Shown one piece after another: positions 4,054-14,142 of a DNA stretch of 39,798 nt (its first letter is position 1; each line of letters starts with the position of its first letter). The position numbers and the translations under genes were made by a program. A model generated the notes under the pieces. That model saw only the letters and a program-made list of their open reading frames with translations. It was not told the DNA's origin and did no database searches. Source of the DNA: Thermoleophilia bacterium (GTDB taxonomy: Bacteria; Actinomycetota; Thermoleophilia; Miltoncostaeales; Miltoncostaeaceae); NCBI GenBank assembly GCA_025455865.1, contig JALOLS010000008.1:1-39798 (forward strand). The letters run 5' to 3'.

Positions 4054-4353
4054 CTACCCGAGCGGCCGGCCGGCCCGCCGGCCCAGGCGCCCGAGCGCCA
4101 CGCGCCGCACCAGGGCGAGCAGCGCCATGCCGCCCATGCGCATGACCGGCCGGCTGCGGAGCACCAGCCCGAGCACGACCGCGCCGATGAGCGTGGCCAG
4201 GAGGGCGCCGCCGATGCTGGCGTCGAGGGGGCCGAGGCCCGCGACGGCGTAGGTGACCAGCCCGATCACCGCGCCGAGCGCCGCACCGACCAGCATGAGG
4301 GTGCGTCGCACGATGCCGAGGCCGGGGACGGGGAGGGGCACGCGGGGGCTCAT
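4054..4353 (-). CDS. small membrane protein of unknown function
   Basis: A 99-residue protein with hydrophobic segments at about residues 17-40 (TLMLVGAALGAVIGLVTYAV) and 45-66 (SIGGALLATLIGAVVLGLVL), followed by a basic tail rich in Arg. It has the look of a two-span inner-membrane protein with the tail in the cytoplasm. Its ATG overlaps the stop of the TetR gene upstream by 4 bases, so it is co-transcribed and coupled with that regulator. The stop lies one base from the convergent thioesterase stop. No family recognised. Confidence 0.7.
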   Translation of the reverse strand: MSPRVPLPVPGLGIVRRTLMLVGAALGAVIGLVTYAVAGLGPLDASIGGALLATLIGAVVLGLVLRSRPVMRMGGMALLALVRRVALGRLGRRAGRPLG

Positions 4354-4985
4354 GGCCCCATGGTGCCCGATGGGGGTGGGCCGCAGGCCAGCACCCGGTC
4401 CACCAGCGCATCGAGTGCGCCGGTGAGGTCCTCGGCGCGCACGCCCCGCTCCTCGACCAGGTGCCCGACCAGGTCCGCGGCGAGCGGCGCGAGCACCAGG
4501 TCGGGCAGGAGCCCGGGGTCCGCACCGAGCCCCTCGCGCAGGAGCACGGCCACGTGCAGGCGCTGGCCGGCGTACACCTGGGTGCGGTAGCGGGCGCCCG
4601 CGGTGGCGTTCTCGGCCACCACCATCAGCCGCAGGTTGGCGACCACCATGCCCGCCAGCGCGCCCAGGAAGGCGCGCAGGCGCGCGTCCGGGGGTGCGCC
4701 GGGCCCGAGCGGCGGCGGACCGCGCAGCACCTGCTCCTGGATCTCGCGCTCGCGGGCGTCGAGCACCGCGAGCGCCAGCCCCGCGCGATCGCCGAAGCGC
4801 CGGTAGATCGTCCCCTTGCCCACCCCGGCCACGCGGGCCACCTCGTCCAGGGTCACCTCGGTGGGGCAGCGCTCGGCGAACAGCCGCTCGGCGGCCTCGA
4901 GCACGCGGCGCCGGTTGCGCGCGGCGTCGGCACGTTCGGTGACCGCGGTGGCGGCGGGGTCGGTGGGGGTGAACCGGAGGGCCAT
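4350..4985 (-). CDS. TetR family transcriptional repressor
   Basis: A 211-residue TetR protein. The N-terminal DNA-binding domain covers about residues 22-70, with RRRVLEAAERLFAE leading into the helix-turn-helix LDEVARVAGVGKGTIYRRFG. The rest is the helical ligand-binding and dimer domain, which is not conserved enough to give the ligand. I start it at the ATG at 4985; earlier in-frame codons run into the operator region. Three GGAC-N4-GTCC dyads lie between this gene and the divergent YceI gene, and one of them covers its own -10. It therefore probably represses both itself and the YceI/FMN-reductase pair. It is followed by a coupled small membrane protein. Confidence 0.92.
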   Translation of the reverse strand: MALRFTPTDPAATAVTERADAARNRRRVLEAAERLFAERCPTEVTLDEVARVAGVGKGTIYRRFGDRAGLALAVLDAREREIQEQVLRGPPPLGPGAPPDARLRAFLGALAGMVVANLRLMVVAENATAGARYRTQVYAGQRLHVAVLLREGLGADPGLLPDLVLAPLAADLVGHLVEERGVRAEDLTGALDALVDRVLACGPPPSGTMGP

Positions 4986-5014
4986 TGACAAAGCGGACTG
5001 TAGTCCGTTACGGT
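4985..5014 (+). promoter_or_regulatory. promoter of the YceI operon with operator in the spacer
   Basis: TTGACA (4985-4990), an 18-base spacer and TACGGT (5009-5014) form a good promoter towards the YceI gene. The dyad at 4994-5007 fills the spacer, a classical repression geometry. Confidence 0.6.
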
Positions 5015-5057
5015 GCCCGCAGCAAATCGGACTGCAGTCCGAATGGACCTGAGTCCG
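4994..5057. promoter_or_regulatory. TetR operator cluster: three GGAC-N4-GTCC dyads
   Basis: Three copies of GGAC-N4-GTCC lie between the divergent TetR and YceI genes, at 4995-5006 (centre TGTA), 5029-5040 (centre TGCA) and 5045-5056 (centre CTGA). The middle copy extends to a perfect 16-base palindrome, TCGGACTGCAGTCCGA, at 5027-5042. The first overlaps both promoters; the other two lie in the YceI 5' leader. The dyad centres are 34 and 16 bases apart. Binding by the adjacent TetR protein is inferred from position and symmetry. Confidence 0.7.
4997..5025 (-). promoter_or_regulatory. TetR gene promoter
   Basis: On the minus strand TTGCTG (5025-5020), a 17-base spacer and TACAGT (5002-4997) face the TetR gene. 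The -10 lies inside the first operator dyad, so autorepression is likely. Confidence 0.5.
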
Positions 5058-5076
5058 TATAACGAGAGGAACGACG

Positions 5077-5634
5077 ATGACCACCAGCACCCTCCCGCAG
5101 GCCACCCTGGTCCCCACCGGCACCTGGGCGAGCGATCCGGTCCACTCGACCGTCGAGTTCTCCGCGCGGCACATGGCCGTCTCGACCTACCGCGGCGCGC
5201 TGCCGAAGTTCGAGCTCGCCCTCACCGGTGGTCCCGAGCCCCGCCTGGAGGGCCGCGCCCCGGTCGCCCCGGTCACCACCGAGGACGCCAACCTGACCGG
5301 CCACCTGCTCTCGCCGGACTTCCTCGACGCCGAGCGCCACCCCGAGGTGCGGTTCACCTCGACCAGGGTCGTCCTCGAGCCCGGGGAGACGTTCGTCGCC
5401 GAGGGCGAGCTGACCATGAAGGGCGTGACCCTCCCGGTCACGTTCCGCGGCACGCTGGCCGGCCCGGTGGACGACCCCTGGGGCGGGGCGCGCATGGGCC
5501 TCGACATCGAGGCGAAGGTGGACCGGCGCGACTTCGGCATGGACTGGAGCCTCGACCTCCCGGGCGGCGGCCTCGTCCTCGGATACCAGGTGCGCCTGCA
5601 GGCCCACGTCGAGCTGATCCGCCAGGCGGGCTGA
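5077..5634 (+). CDS. YceI family protein (lipocalin-like isoprenoid-binding fold)
   Basis: A 185-residue YceI-domain protein. It starts the family way, with GTWASDPVHSTVEFSARHM near residue 15, and keeps LTGHLLSPDFLDAERHPEVRFTST, the LTMKGVTLPVTF strand and the closing DRRDFGMDW segment. YceI proteins form an extended lipocalin-like barrel that binds long polyisoprenoid or fatty molecules. There is no signal peptide, so this is the cytoplasmic type. ATG at 5077 follows a GAGAGGAACG ribosome-binding site. It is transcribed away from the TetR gene behind an operator-covered promoter, and the FMN reductase follows after 4 bases. The pair is probably a TetR-controlled response to a lipophilic or redox-active compound. 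Confidence 0.94.
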   Translation: MTTSTLPQATLVPTGTWASDPVHSTVEFSARHMAVSTYRGALPKFELALTGGPEPRLEGRAPVAPVTTEDANLTGHLLSPDFLDAERHPEVRFTSTRVVLEPGETFVAEGELTMKGVTLPVTFRGTLAGPVDDPWGGARMGLDIEAKVDRRDFGMDWSLDLPGGGLVLGYQVRLQAHVELIRQAG

Positions 5635-5638
5635 GGCC

Positions 5639-6193
5639 ATGGAGATCCTCGGCATCGTCGGGAGCCTGAGATCCGGCGCCCACAACGAGGCCCTCATGGG
5701 GGCGGCCGCGCTGGCCGTCCCCGAGGGGGCCGGGATCATCCGGCTGGACGGCCTGCGTGACCTGCCGTACTACGACGAGGACCAGGACACCGACTCGCCG
5801 CCGCCGGCGGTCGTGCGCCTGCGTGCCCGGATCGCGGCCGCCGACGCGCTGCTGATCGCCACCCCGGAGTACAACGGGTCGATCCCCGGAGTGGTCAAGA
5901 ACGCGGTCGACTGGGCCAGCCGGCCGTTCCCGGGGTCGAGCCTGCGCGGACGCAGCGTGGCGGTCATCGGGGCGAGCACGAGCCGCTTCGGCGGGGTGTG
6001 GGCGCATGCGGAACTGCGCAAGGTGCTCGGCCTCGCGGGCGCCCGGGTGGTGGCGTCGGGCATCGCGGTGCCGCACGCCGACCGGGCGTTCGCGGCCGAC
6101 GGGCGCCTGGCCGATCCCGAGCAGCAGGAGGCGCTCGCGGCGGTGCTCGCGGACCTCGTGGCGAGCGCGCGCGGGGTGCTCCAGCCCGTGTGA
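5639..6193 (+). CDS. NAD(P)H-dependent FMN reductase (flavodoxin-like)
   Basis: A 184-residue NADPH-dependent FMN reductase of the ChrR/ArsH-like superfamily; these reduce FMN, quinones or oxidised metals with NAD(P)H. The flavin-phosphate loop is GIVGSLRSGAHN at residues 5-16, and the flavin-binding TPEYNGSIPGVVKNAVDW motif lies near residues 78-95, followed by VAVIGAS. It begins 4 bases after the YceI stop and so shares its operon and TetR control. No signal peptide; cytoplasmic. The physiological electron acceptor is not evident. Confidence 0.93.
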   Translation: MEILGIVGSLRSGAHNEALMGAAALAVPEGAGIIRLDGLRDLPYYDEDQDTDSPPPAVVRLRARIAAADALLIATPEYNGSIPGVVKNAVDWASRPFPGSSLRGRSVAVIGASTSRFGGVWAHAELRKVLGLAGARVVASGIAVPHADRAFAADGRLADPEQQEALAAVLADLVASARGVLQPV

Positions 6194-11186: not shown

Positions 11187-11792
11187 CTACCAGTGGAAGA
11201 TCGGGAAGACCCGGGTCTGCACGGTGGCCACGCCGATCTTGGTGTCGCCGTTCACCAGGCTCTCAGGGGCCCCGAAGGTGTCGCGCAGCAGCGCCGCGGC
11301 TCCCTCGGTGAGGTCGAGGTGCACGCCCTTGACCGTGAGGTTGCGGCCCTTGAGGTCGACCATCGGGCCGTTCGGGAAGGTGACGTCGAACACCGGGACA
11401 CGGCCCGCGAGCTTGCCGTTCACCCGCACCTGCGCGGTGAGGTTCCCGTTGGTCAGGTCGATGAAGTAGCGGCTCAGGTTCACCGACGGACCGTTCTCGG
11501 CCGCGAGGGTCAGGCCGCCCACGTGGCGGATCTCGCCCTTGAGCGCCTTCAGGTCGACCTTGCCCACGGTGATGGGGAAGGTGATCCCGGCCGGGCCGGG
11601 CATGGCCGCGCCGGTCGGGGCCACACCGACCTCGGCGTCGGCGAGGGCGCCGAAGGTGCCCGCGTCGGGGACCACGGTGGTCCCGCCGGTCGCGAGGATC
11701 GAGGTGGAGCCCAGGGCCGCCGGGGCGGCGGCGAGGGCGGCGCCGGCGATGACGGCGGTGGCGATGCGGGTGTTCAGGCGCGTGCGGGTCAT
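11187..11792 (-). CDS. secreted HtaA-like domain protein
   Basis: A 201-residue exported protein. The first 30 residues (MTRTRLNTRIATAVIAGAALAAAPAALG) are a signal peptide. The mature part has the layout of the HtaA domain: FPITVGKVDLKALKGEIRHVGGLTLAA, then a line of short beta strands ending LTVKGVHLDLTEGAAALL. HtaA domains in corynebacteria bind haem, but many actinobacterial relatives are simply secreted beta proteins, so haem binding is not claimed. An AAGGAG ribosome-binding site precedes the ATG at 11792. It has its own upstream gap and appears to be a single-gene unit. Confidence 0.8.
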   Translation of the reverse strand: MTRTRLNTRIATAVIAGAALAAAPAALGSTSILATGGTTVVPDAGTFGALADAEVGVAPTGAAMPGPAGITFPITVGKVDLKALKGEIRHVGGLTLAAENGPSVNLSRYFIDLTNGNLTAQVRVNGKLAGRVPVFDVTFPNGPMVDLKGRNLTVKGVHLDLTEGAAALLRDTFGAPESLVNGDTKIGVATVQTRVFPIFHW

Positions 11793-11884
11793 GGCGTGCT
11801 CCTTGGTCGGGAGGTACACCTGGACATACGACCGGGCACGCTGTCGAGGTTGTGAACGGGATGACACGCGGGAGGATCCGGCGC

Positions 11885-12493
11885 TCAGCGCCGGAGCAGC
11901 GCGAAGGCGATCCCCGGCCCCTGCCCGAGCCGGTAGGCCATGCGGATCCAGATCGCGGCCAGGTGCTCAAGGTCGCGGGCGGCGTCGAGCGGCCCGGCGT
12001 CGGCGGCGTCGAACCCGATCGCCCCGGCCAGGTCCATCACGACCGCCTTGGCCTGCTCGTCGTCGCCGGCCACCGGCATCCAGGGCCGCACCGCCCCGTA
12101 GGCCGGGTCGGCCATGTTCGCCGCGCCGGTGGTGTTGAACGCCTTGACCACGCGGGCGCTCCCGGTCCAGCCGGCGACGAGCCGCGCGCCCGAGAGCGTG
12201 CCGTCGGCGGCCAGGGCGGGCTCGCCGGCGGCGAGCGGGTTGGTGGCGTCGATGACCACCGCCTCGCCCACCGCAAGCCCCGACGCGACGGCCTCGGTGG
12301 CCGGCCAGGGGAGCGCCAGCAGGACGACGTCCGCGCCGCGGGCGGCGTCCGCGCTCGACGCGACCGGGCCGAGCGCCGCGTGGCGCGAATCGGCCGGGTC
12401 GCGGACCCCGTAGACCACCTCGTGCCCGGCATCCCGCCAGCGCCCGCCGAGGGCCGTGCCCACGCGCCCGGCGCCGATGATCGCGATCCGCAT
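11885..12493 (-). CDS. NADPH-dependent F420-reductase-like oxidoreductase
   Basis: A 202-residue Rossmann protein of the NADPH:F420 oxidoreductase/DUF1448-like group. It begins MRIAIIGAGRVGTALGGRW, the dinucleotide-binding loop, and keeps VVLLALPWPAT, VVIDATNPL and the family's characteristic RVVKAFNTTGAANM segment near residue 135. F420-type members move hydride between NADPH and coenzyme F420, which actinobacteria make; relatives also use other substrates. It starts 2 bases after the DJ-1-like gene and is its operon partner, placed behind a promoter with a MarR-type operator. Sure of the fold, less of the substrate. Confidence 0.88.
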   Translation of the reverse strand: MRIAIIGAGRVGTALGGRWRDAGHEVVYGVRDPADSRHAALGPVASSADAARGADVVLLALPWPATEAVASGLAVGEAVVIDATNPLAAGEPALAADGTLSGARLVAGWTGSARVVKAFNTTGAANMADPAYGAVRPWMPVAGDDEQAKAVVMDLAGAIGFDAADAGPLDAARDLEHLAAIWIRMAYRLGQGPGIAFALLRR

Positions 12494-12495
12494 CC

Positions 12496-13233
12496 TCAGA
12501 CCCCCAGCGCCTCGATGACCAGGCGCGCGGCGGCGGCGCCCGAGTACTGCTGCTGGCCGGTGATCAGGTTGCCGTGGCGCACCGCGTGGGAGCGGAAGGC
12601 GCCCTGCACGATGAAGTTGGTGCCCGGGATGGCGCGGGCCTCGTCCTCGATCCGGAAGGGCTGGATGGCCTGGCCCACCAGGTCGTCGGCGAACTGCTCC
12701 TCGCTGTCGGCGAAGCCGGTCCAGGTGCGGCCCTCCACCAGCAGGCGCCCGTCGGCGCCCCGGGCGGTCAGGAGCACGCAGGTGGCGTGGCAGACCACCG
12801 CGGTGGGCAGCCCGGCGTCCAGCGCACCGGCCACCAGCGCCTCCACCGCCGGGTTCGCGCGGAACGTGTACATGGGCGCCTGGCCGCCGACCAGGAAGAC
12901 CGCGTCGAAGTCCCCGATCGCCAGGTCCGCGAGGGCCGGCGTGTCCTCCAGCAGCGCCGCGTGGGTGGGGCTGCGCTTGAAGCCGAGCGAGATCAGGTCG
13001 GCGGCGGAGTAGCCCGAGGGGTCCTCCGGGTCGCTGAAGCCGTCGGGGACGACGGTCCCGCCGTCCGGGCTGGCGATGGTGACCTCATACCCGCGCTCGG
13101 TGAACTCCCACCACGGGTGGGTGAGCTCCGCCCACCAGAACCCGATGGGCCAGCCGGTCTGACCGCTCACGGCGGGGTTCGAGACGAGCATGAGCACGCG
13201 GCGGGGCCGGAGCACGTCGATGGTCGCGGACAC
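12496..13233 (-). CDS. DJ-1/PfpI (Hsp31-like) family protein
   Basis: A 245-residue class I glutamine-amidotransferase-like protein of the DJ-1/PfpI group, closest in layout to the Hsp31/glyoxalase III type: RRVLMLVSNP, then GFWWAELTHPWWEFTERGYEVTIASPDGG, and the nucleophile elbow AVVCHATCVLL near residue 145 with the reactive Cys. FDAVFLVGGQAPMYTF lies before it. Such proteins detoxify glyoxals or act as stress chaperones. The start is a GTG at 13233 with an AGGAGG site 6 bases upstream. Its promoter (TTGACT-N16-CAATCT) encloses the MarR-type dyad, so the divergent MarR-PDZ regulator probably controls it. Confidence 0.92.
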   Translation of the reverse strand: MSATIDVLRPRRVLMLVSNPAVSGQTGWPIGFWWAELTHPWWEFTERGYEVTIASPDGGTVVPDGFSDPEDPSGYSAADLISLGFKRSPTHAALLEDTPALADLAIGDFDAVFLVGGQAPMYTFRANPAVEALVAGALDAGLPTAVVCHATCVLLTARGADGRLLVEGRTWTGFADSEEQFADDLVGQAIQPFRIEDEARAIPGTNFIVQGAFRSHAVRHGNLITGQQQYSGAAAARLVIEALGV

Positions 13234-13266: not shown

Positions 13267-13294
13267 AGATTGCTTGGACTCAAGCAAAAGTCAA
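13267..13294 (-). promoter_or_regulatory. promoter of the DJ-1/F420-reductase operon
   Basis: On the minus strand TTGACT (13294-13289), a 16-base spacer and CAATCT (13272-13267) precede the DJ-1 gene. The inverted repeat at 13270-13287 lies across the spacer and -10. Confidence 0.5.
13270..13287. promoter_or_regulatory. MarR-type operator dyad
   Basis: TTGCTTG-GACT-CAAGCAA has perfect 7-base arms. TTGC...GCAA dyads are typical MarR-family sites. It blocks the promoter of the divergent DJ-1 operon and lies 22 bases upstream of the -10 of the MarR-PDZ gene. Binding is inferred. Confidence 0.65.
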
Positions 13295-13320: not shown

Positions 13321-14142
13321 ATGCCTCCCGGGACCCCTGAGCCCCCCCGCGACTCCATCGACGCCGTGGTGGAGGGCTGGGGCGGGATCCGCGGAGACCT
13401 CGACGTGTCCCCCGTCGCGGTGGTGGCCCGGCTCGGCCGGGTGCGCGGGGTCATCGAGCAGGAGGTCGAGGCCGTGCTCGCCGACCACGGCCTCGGCCTG
13501 GCCGCGTTCACCGCCCTCGCCGCCGTCGCGCGCCTGGGGGCCGATGAGGGGGTCGCCCAGGCCCGCCTGATGCGCGAGCTGCGGCTGACCTCGGGGACCG
13601 TGAGCGTCCGCATCGACCGCCTCGTGGCCGACGGGCTGGTGGAGCGCCGGCCCGATCCGGCGGACCGGCGGGGGGCGCTGGTGCGCCTGACCGCGGAGGG
13701 GCGCGAGCGGTTCGAGCGCGTCGTGCCCGTCCACCTGGCCACCGAGCGGCGCCTGCTCGCGGCGCTCTCGGAGGCCGAGCAGCAGACGCTCGCGGGGCTC
13801 CTGCGCAAGCTGCTGGTCTCATTCGAGGGCTGCGCGGCGCCCGGCGCCGATCCGGGCCGCGCCATCGGCGCGGTGCTGACCCCCGCCCACCAGGCCATGG
13901 GGATGCGGGGATCGGTGGGCCTCTCCGAGCAGGCCGGGCTCCTGGTGCGCTCGGTCGACGGTGGAGGCCCGGCCGACCGGGCCGGGATCGCGGCCGGGGA
14001 CCTCATCGTCGCCGCCGCGGGCCGGGAGGTCCGCTCGGTGGTCGACCTGCACGAGGCCCTCGCTCCGGGCACGCCGACCGAGGTCCGGCTGCTCAGGGGC
14101 GAGCGGCGCCTGGCGGTCGGGATCGCCGCGCCGGCGGCCTGA
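13321..14142 (+). CDS. MarR family regulator fused to a C-terminal PDZ domain
   Basis: A 273-residue fusion. Residues about 30-168 are a MarR domain with winged helix-turn-helix (ARLMRELRLTSGTVSVRIDRLVADGLV at 81-107, then the wing RRPDPADRRGALVRLT). Residues about 193-270 are a PDZ domain of the HtrA type: GMRGSV, GLLVRSVDGGGPADRAGIAAGDLIVAAAGREVRSVVDLHEAL. PDZ domains bind C-terminal peptides, so this regulator may sense a peptide end or protein partner instead of, or besides, a phenolic ligand. No membrane segment or protease domain is present. Leaderless start. It faces the DJ-1/F420-reductase operon across a dyad operator, its likely target. Confidence 0.9.
   Translation: MPPGTPEPPRDSIDAVVEGWGGIRGDLDVSPVAVVARLGRVRGVIEQEVEAVLADHGLGLAAFTALAAVARLGADEGVAQARLMRELRLTSGTVSVRIDRLVADGLVERRPDPADRRGALVRLTAEGRERFERVVPVHLATERRLLAALSEAEQQTLAGLLRKLLVSFEGCAAPGADPGRAIGAVLTPAHQAMGMRGSVGLSEQAGLLVRSVDGGGPADRAGIAAGDLIVAAAGREVRSVVDLHEALAPGTPTEVRLLRGERRLAVGIAAPAA

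Follow-up and report, generated by a model that had tools for sequence, protein, structure and literature searches.

The window analysed here, a stretch of 39,798 nucleotides, carries at 13321-14142 on the plus strand a single reading frame of 273 aa, with an ATG start and no internal stop, that joins a MarR winged-helix domain to an HtrA-type PDZ domain. A DJ-1/PfpI-like gene and a small oxidoreductase gene lie divergently on the other strand, with a candidate operator between them and the fusion:

11885..12493, minus strand: small NAD(P)-binding oxidoreductase gene, downstream of the DJ-1 gene (PF03807 F420_oxidored, E 4.3e-15)
12496..13233, minus strand: DJ-1/PfpI-like gene, divergent from the fusion (PF01965, E 1.6e-12; start inferred from the starts of homologues)
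13270..13287, no strand: candidate operator TTGCTTGGACTCAAGCAA, with 7-bp arms and a 4-bp spacer (matrix scan, genome pattern search)
13321..14142, plus strand: MarR-PDZ fusion regulator, 273 aa (reading frame with ATG start; Pfam; homologues over the full length in 12 other genomes among 399)
13348..13392, plus strand: N-terminal helix, residues 10-24, a PecS-type extension with W20 (model helix H10-24; alignment)
13408..13824, plus strand: MarR winged-helix domain, residues 30-168 (Pfam, PDB search, model)
13855..14124, plus strand: HtrA-type PDZ domain, residues about 179-268 (PDZ_6 and PDZ_2; profile matches to DegP, DegQ and HtrA2 chains; PDZ tree)

Behind the oxidoreductase lies a gene at 11187-11867 (minus strand) that has no Pfam match and, by eye, an apparent signal peptide. 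Elsewhere in the window, at 4350-6193, a TetR-type regulator is divergent from a set of genes, one of which encodes an NADPH-dependent FMN reductase.

Domain make-up of the regulator

Both halves of the protein exceed curated Pfam cut-offs. The winged-helix model MarR_2 (PF12802), which places the protein in the MarR family, matches residues 56-117 (E 2.4e-13, 50.5 bits against a cut-off of 27), and three PDZ models follow it: PDZ_6 (PF17820) at residues 209-257 (E 7e-11, 42.1 bits against 27), PDZ_2 (PF13180) at residues 191-266 (E 1.5e-8, 35.3 bits against 27), and PDZ itself (PF00595, 26.8 bits against 23.2). All 10 fusions tested, out of the 14 described below, pass both the MarR and the PDZ cut-offs. 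A PDB sequence search likewise divides the protein in two, with residues 8-169 retrieving MarR proteins (chains of 8ylf, 8ylh, 2fbk, and others) and residues about 195-269 retrieving HtrA/DegP-type PDZs, and a profile built on the PDZs of five fusions matches DegP-like chains with an E of 1e-19. The original prediction had described a normal MarR domain at residues 30-168 and a PDZ domain at 193-270. The MarR domain is borne out by the Pfam and PDB matches, with the qualification that a PecS-type helix at residues about 10-24 extends its boundary; the PDZ domain also stands, as one of HtrA type, but its start lies not at residue 193 but near 179, where the strand AIGAVL aligns with the R-L-G-[VML] of relatives.

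An N-terminal helix bearing a conserved Trp is given as a hallmark of the PecS/UrtR subfamily in PMC6391409. The window protein has this extension, with W20 invariant among four aligned fusions and kept in 11 of 11 rows of the group that we call type A, to which the window belongs; a second group, type B, lacks it. In the AlphaFold model, the MarR part of the fusion is of good quality, and the PDB structures most like it are those of MftR and PecS in complex with operator DNA (the top entries are 8ylg, 8yli, and 8ylm, and the 8yl entries are MftR, PecS, and HucR by structure search). Judged by sequence and modelled fold, the MarR part is of the PecS/MftR/HucR type. With few relatives as input, the PDZ domain was modelled at low confidence, with a pLDDT of about 29-46 inside the fusion and a mean of 38.9 as a lone domain, and a scan of viral contigs for PDZ relatives with which to enrich the alignment gave 207 pattern matches and no relative. 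Redox sensing through cysteine was dropped as an idea on inspection of the four-fusion alignment, which has no Cys in its invariant columns.

The kinship with the HtrA/DegP/DegQ/DegS proteins is one of PDZ sequence homology, up to the E 1e-19 of the profile search. The trypsin-like domain with its His-Asp-Ser triad that marks the HtrA protease family is absent from the fusion, which has no Pfam Trypsin match, leaving the PDZ alone in common; in contrast to those proteases, the regulator is predicted to be cytosolic and has its PDZ joined to a DNA-binding domain.

Distribution and descent of the fusion

A check for the same fusion in related genomes, suggested with the original prediction, found it. 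Homologous MarR-PDZ fusions occur at no fewer than 14 loci in at least 13 of the 399 genomes of the class, a lower bound since six candidates were scored per genome, and they span three families (f1, f5, and f7) and six genera. The survey took in homologues of the window fusion, as distinct from combinations of other MarR with other PDZ domains. Full-length fusions are found in 4 of 61 relatives and in 4 of 42 genomes of the window's family. Type A comprises 11 loci that all share one MarR subtype (G000, which is the window's own genome, G019, G022, G025, G725, G729, G735 with two, G749, G567, and G726); type B comprises three shorter proteins of 244-249 aa (G697, G716, and G721). Across 396 genomes of the phylum, again with six candidates scored per genome, the sole full-length fusion among the matches listed was the window's own, and none of the 165 plasmid records that matched the fusion query covered 80% or more of it. 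The fusion is no peculiarity of a single genome.

Type A forms one group in the MarR tree together with one PDZ-less member from G673 (SH-aLRT 90; locus L101, 3887-4378), which may possibly reflect loss of the PDZ. Because this protein sits inside the type A group, the PDZ appears to be dispensable. Type B falls on a long branch in the MarR trees, which prompted us to consider two independent fusions. An AU test, however, does not reject a tree that unites the 14 fusions in one clade (p 0.841; this constrained tree was the better one), and the first matches of a type B MarR query of 149 genomes are type A fusions (G025, G022, and G019). On these two results a single origin of both types is possible.

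The PDZ points toward the HtrA system. Many genomes of the class, in a non-random sample of loci fetched for their PDZ matches, carry an HtrA-like gene and a catalytic HtrA in tandem. A tree of 57 PDZs is poorly resolved inside the half that holds the fused and paralogue domains, but it places all 14 fused PDZs with 26 from the upstream HtrA-like paralogue and sets the 17 from catalytic HtrAs apart on a branch supported at 100/100. All 14 fused PDZs also score higher against the paralogue than against the catalytic HtrA, so on sequence grounds the fused PDZ is of the paralogue's lineage. 'Pseudoprotease' would be wrong as a general label for this paralogue, since in an alignment read by eye His, Asp, and Ser are all retained in 14 of the 24 rows that include a protease part; the copy in the window's own genome (L137, contig C34) has all three replaced. 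At that locus, as at L118-L136, the paralogue stands in tandem with a catalytic HtrA that has no signal or membrane segment. None of 17 catalytic HtrAs has a hydrophobic segment before the active-site His (the largest 19-residue mean hydropathy is 1.20); they therefore look cytosolic, and protease and regulator would share that compartment.

The two types differ in where this system lies. Each of the three type B regulators adjoins a catalytic HtrA, with which its gene overlaps in L092 and from which it diverges in L093 and L094, and the paralogue query finds no close match in these three genomes, the best hit (E 6e-27 to 6e-30) being the catalytic HtrA itself. Among type A genomes the paralogue is retained in G000, G725, G567, G729, G749, and G735 (E 1e-80 to 1e-188), and no close match was found in G019, G022, G025, and G726, which are mostly drafts, so that absence there is soft; where the HtrA pair is present in type A it is on other contigs than the fusion.

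The candidate operator and the divergent operon

The candidate operator lies 33 bp before the ATG of the fusion and 36 bp before the GTG at 13233 that is most likely the start of the DJ-1 gene; the listed TTG start at 13287 would read through the palindrome. A palindrome of about 18 bp resembling TTAGTTTGnnnnCAAACTAA is present in all 11 type A promoters. These sites were initially chosen by eye in intergenic regions and then scored, which favours the matrix result: when a matrix is built from the promoters of the 10 other type A loci, the window palindrome is the top site of the 39.8 kb (19.2, with the next at 8.5), none of 100 first-order simulations reached that score (the largest was 16.2), and in leave-one-out each type A palindrome ranks first within its own locus (11 of 11). 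Less dependent on the choice by eye are three further results. Within the 3,163,586 bases of the window's own genome the core GYTTGNNNNCAARC has a single location, against four per strand for a reversed control pattern; two PDZ-less loci that were outside the matrix (G005 and G013) score 20.4 and 28.2, first in each locus; and a stricter palindrome pattern matches 17 of 180 fetched loci, each of which proved on reading to be a copy of a type A locus. In all three type B loci (L092, L093, and L094) the best palindrome-like site is at the regulator start, with scores of 11.8-16.6 that are about chance level, as chance matches in control loci reach 15.8. The matrix scan found no such palindrome at the HtrA pair of the window's own genome (L137 and L078), so control of HtrA by the type A regulator is not supported.

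The DJ-1/PfpI gene is divergent from and adjacent to the regulator in 8 of 11 type A loci, and the NADP-oxidoreductase gene is nearby in 9 of 11; at the two loci without it, L085 and L086, the contig ends within or just past DJ-1. Three type A loci (L089, L090, and L091) gave no DJ-1 match, which means that the circuit can do without DJ-1. In L089 and L091 a LysR-type gene, recognised by eye in the sequence, lies in between, and in L090 the oxidoreductase gene follows the fusion directly at its 3' end with a 4-base overlap. This DJ-1 subfamily is rare: a threshold of E 1e-30 finds it in 8 of 199 class genomes, and one of E 1e-40 in 3 of 198 genomes of the phylum. Four of those eight class genomes have a MarR-PDZ alongside. 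Two others, G005 (L178) and G013 (L179), combine the DJ-1/oxidoreductase pair with a PDZ-less PecS-type MarR and the same palindrome, and DNA recognition and the PDZ are therefore separable; these loci offer a natural PDZ-less control for the PDZ. G043 has its DJ-1 gene beside what by eye is an apparent TetR gene, and no regulator was seen at the DJ-1 locus of G015.

The conserved divergent layout and the palindrome with its genome-unique core make the DJ-1/oxidoreductase operon a likely target of the fusion regulator, in agreement with what had been proposed for the DJ-1-like operon. That the protein represses both divergent genes by way of the palindrome is inferred from how the locus is arranged and conserved, by analogy with other MarR proteins. 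With the urate-responsive PecS/MftR/HucR subfamily the system shares the MarR fold, the N-terminal helix with its conserved Trp, a likely divergent target gene, and a palindrome of about 18 bp. It differs in its C-terminal PDZ and in the neighbour, which by Pfam is DJ-1/PfpI, so that the putative target is a DJ-1/oxidoreductase operon and not the pecM efflux pump (DMT) or uricase gene from which PecS/UrtR regulators diverge. The divergent partner is in turn a DJ-1/PfpI protein like the Hsp31-like stress enzymes, but it falls below the NCBIfam curated cut-offs.

A possible role for the PDZ domain

We propose that the fusion is a cytosolic one-component repressor in which the PDZ senses a protein tail, a peptide, or a partner protein and so controls DNA binding, a reading to which we give a probability of about 0.5. 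If this is how the protein works, a PecS/MftR-like MarR dimer would bind the 18-bp palindrome at 13270-13287 and repress both its own gene and the divergent operon, with the C-terminal PDZ, of HtrA-like-paralogue lineage, serving as a protein-interaction input. Capture of a protein tail, a peptide, or a partner (HtrA or a client) would shift the PDZ against the dimerisation helices and weaken DNA binding, and stress enzymes would then be produced once the ends of unfolded or cleaved proteins turn up. Acting as an input is, we suggest, the role that would come most naturally to such a domain. MarR regulators are known for responding to small molecules and oxidants, and a small-molecule ligand, as for HucR and PecS, is usual in this MarR subtype, which counts against a PDZ sensor. 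DegS provides a precedent for the PDZ side, as its HtrA PDZ reads a protein C-terminus and controls transcription through proteolysis of an anti-sigma factor in a membrane cascade.

A further reading, possible but in our view doubtful, is that the PDZ of a cytosolic HtrA system was moved onto a MarR protein, in type B in place of the HtrA-like paralogue, to give a proteostasis repressor responsive to protein tails, and that the kind of degradation or damage signal steering the protease would also switch transcription of HtrA (type B) or of the DJ-1/oxidoreductase genes for stress enzymes (type A).

The same lineage could be read differently, with the PDZ as a docking or turnover handle by which HtrA or its paralogue cleaves or sequesters the repressor under stress, so that derepression would come from loss of the repressor. 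The position of type B regulators beside a catalytic, apparently cytosolic HtrA would fit this as well as the descent of the PDZ does, but the separate contigs of the type A HtrA pair and the four type A genomes in which the paralogue was not found do not, and we consider this route unlikely. We judge it similarly improbable that the MarR pocket senses a small molecule, in the manner of PecS, MftR, and HucR with urate and xanthine, with the PDZ merely stabilising or tethering the protein. Such a ligand would suit the MftR, PecS, and HucR structures that are the best sequence and model matches and the retention of W20 throughout type A; it would leave a long-kept PDZ unexplained, the divergent gene is neither pecM nor uricase, and the PDZ-less protein of G673 shows that the PDZ can be spared. 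A neutral or defective fusion, whether from misassembly, read-through, or a decaying domain, is very improbable despite the long branch (1.2) of the window PDZ in the PDZ tree, given in-frame, stop-free fusions at 14 loci in 13 genomes and a conserved PDZ core.

Should the proposed sensor reading be right and the PDZ read protein ends, damage to proteins would feed straight into gene control. A MarR protein with a protein-tail input would bring in a new class of signal and would link damaged protein to transcription within one molecule, with no cascade at the membrane like that of DegS. A survey of transcription-factor companion domains lists 126 for MarR and does not mention PDZ in its main text (PMC5882156), and among the titles and abstract openings of open-licence papers listed by full-text searches no description of a MarR-PDZ fusion was found. 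The family's assets include a genome-unique operator core, relatives that lack the PDZ but share the operator, and the type B proteins that adjoin HtrA. The DJ-1 proteins themselves offer one idea for a ligand. The C-terminal residue is Val in all seven readable DJ-1 proteins that adjoin type A fusions (the one at L085 is cut by the contig end), and of the three readable ones that have no fusion beside them, one each has Val, Arg, and Thr as its last residue (that of G013 is cut); in these few, related sequences the terminal Val could possibly be what the PDZ binds.
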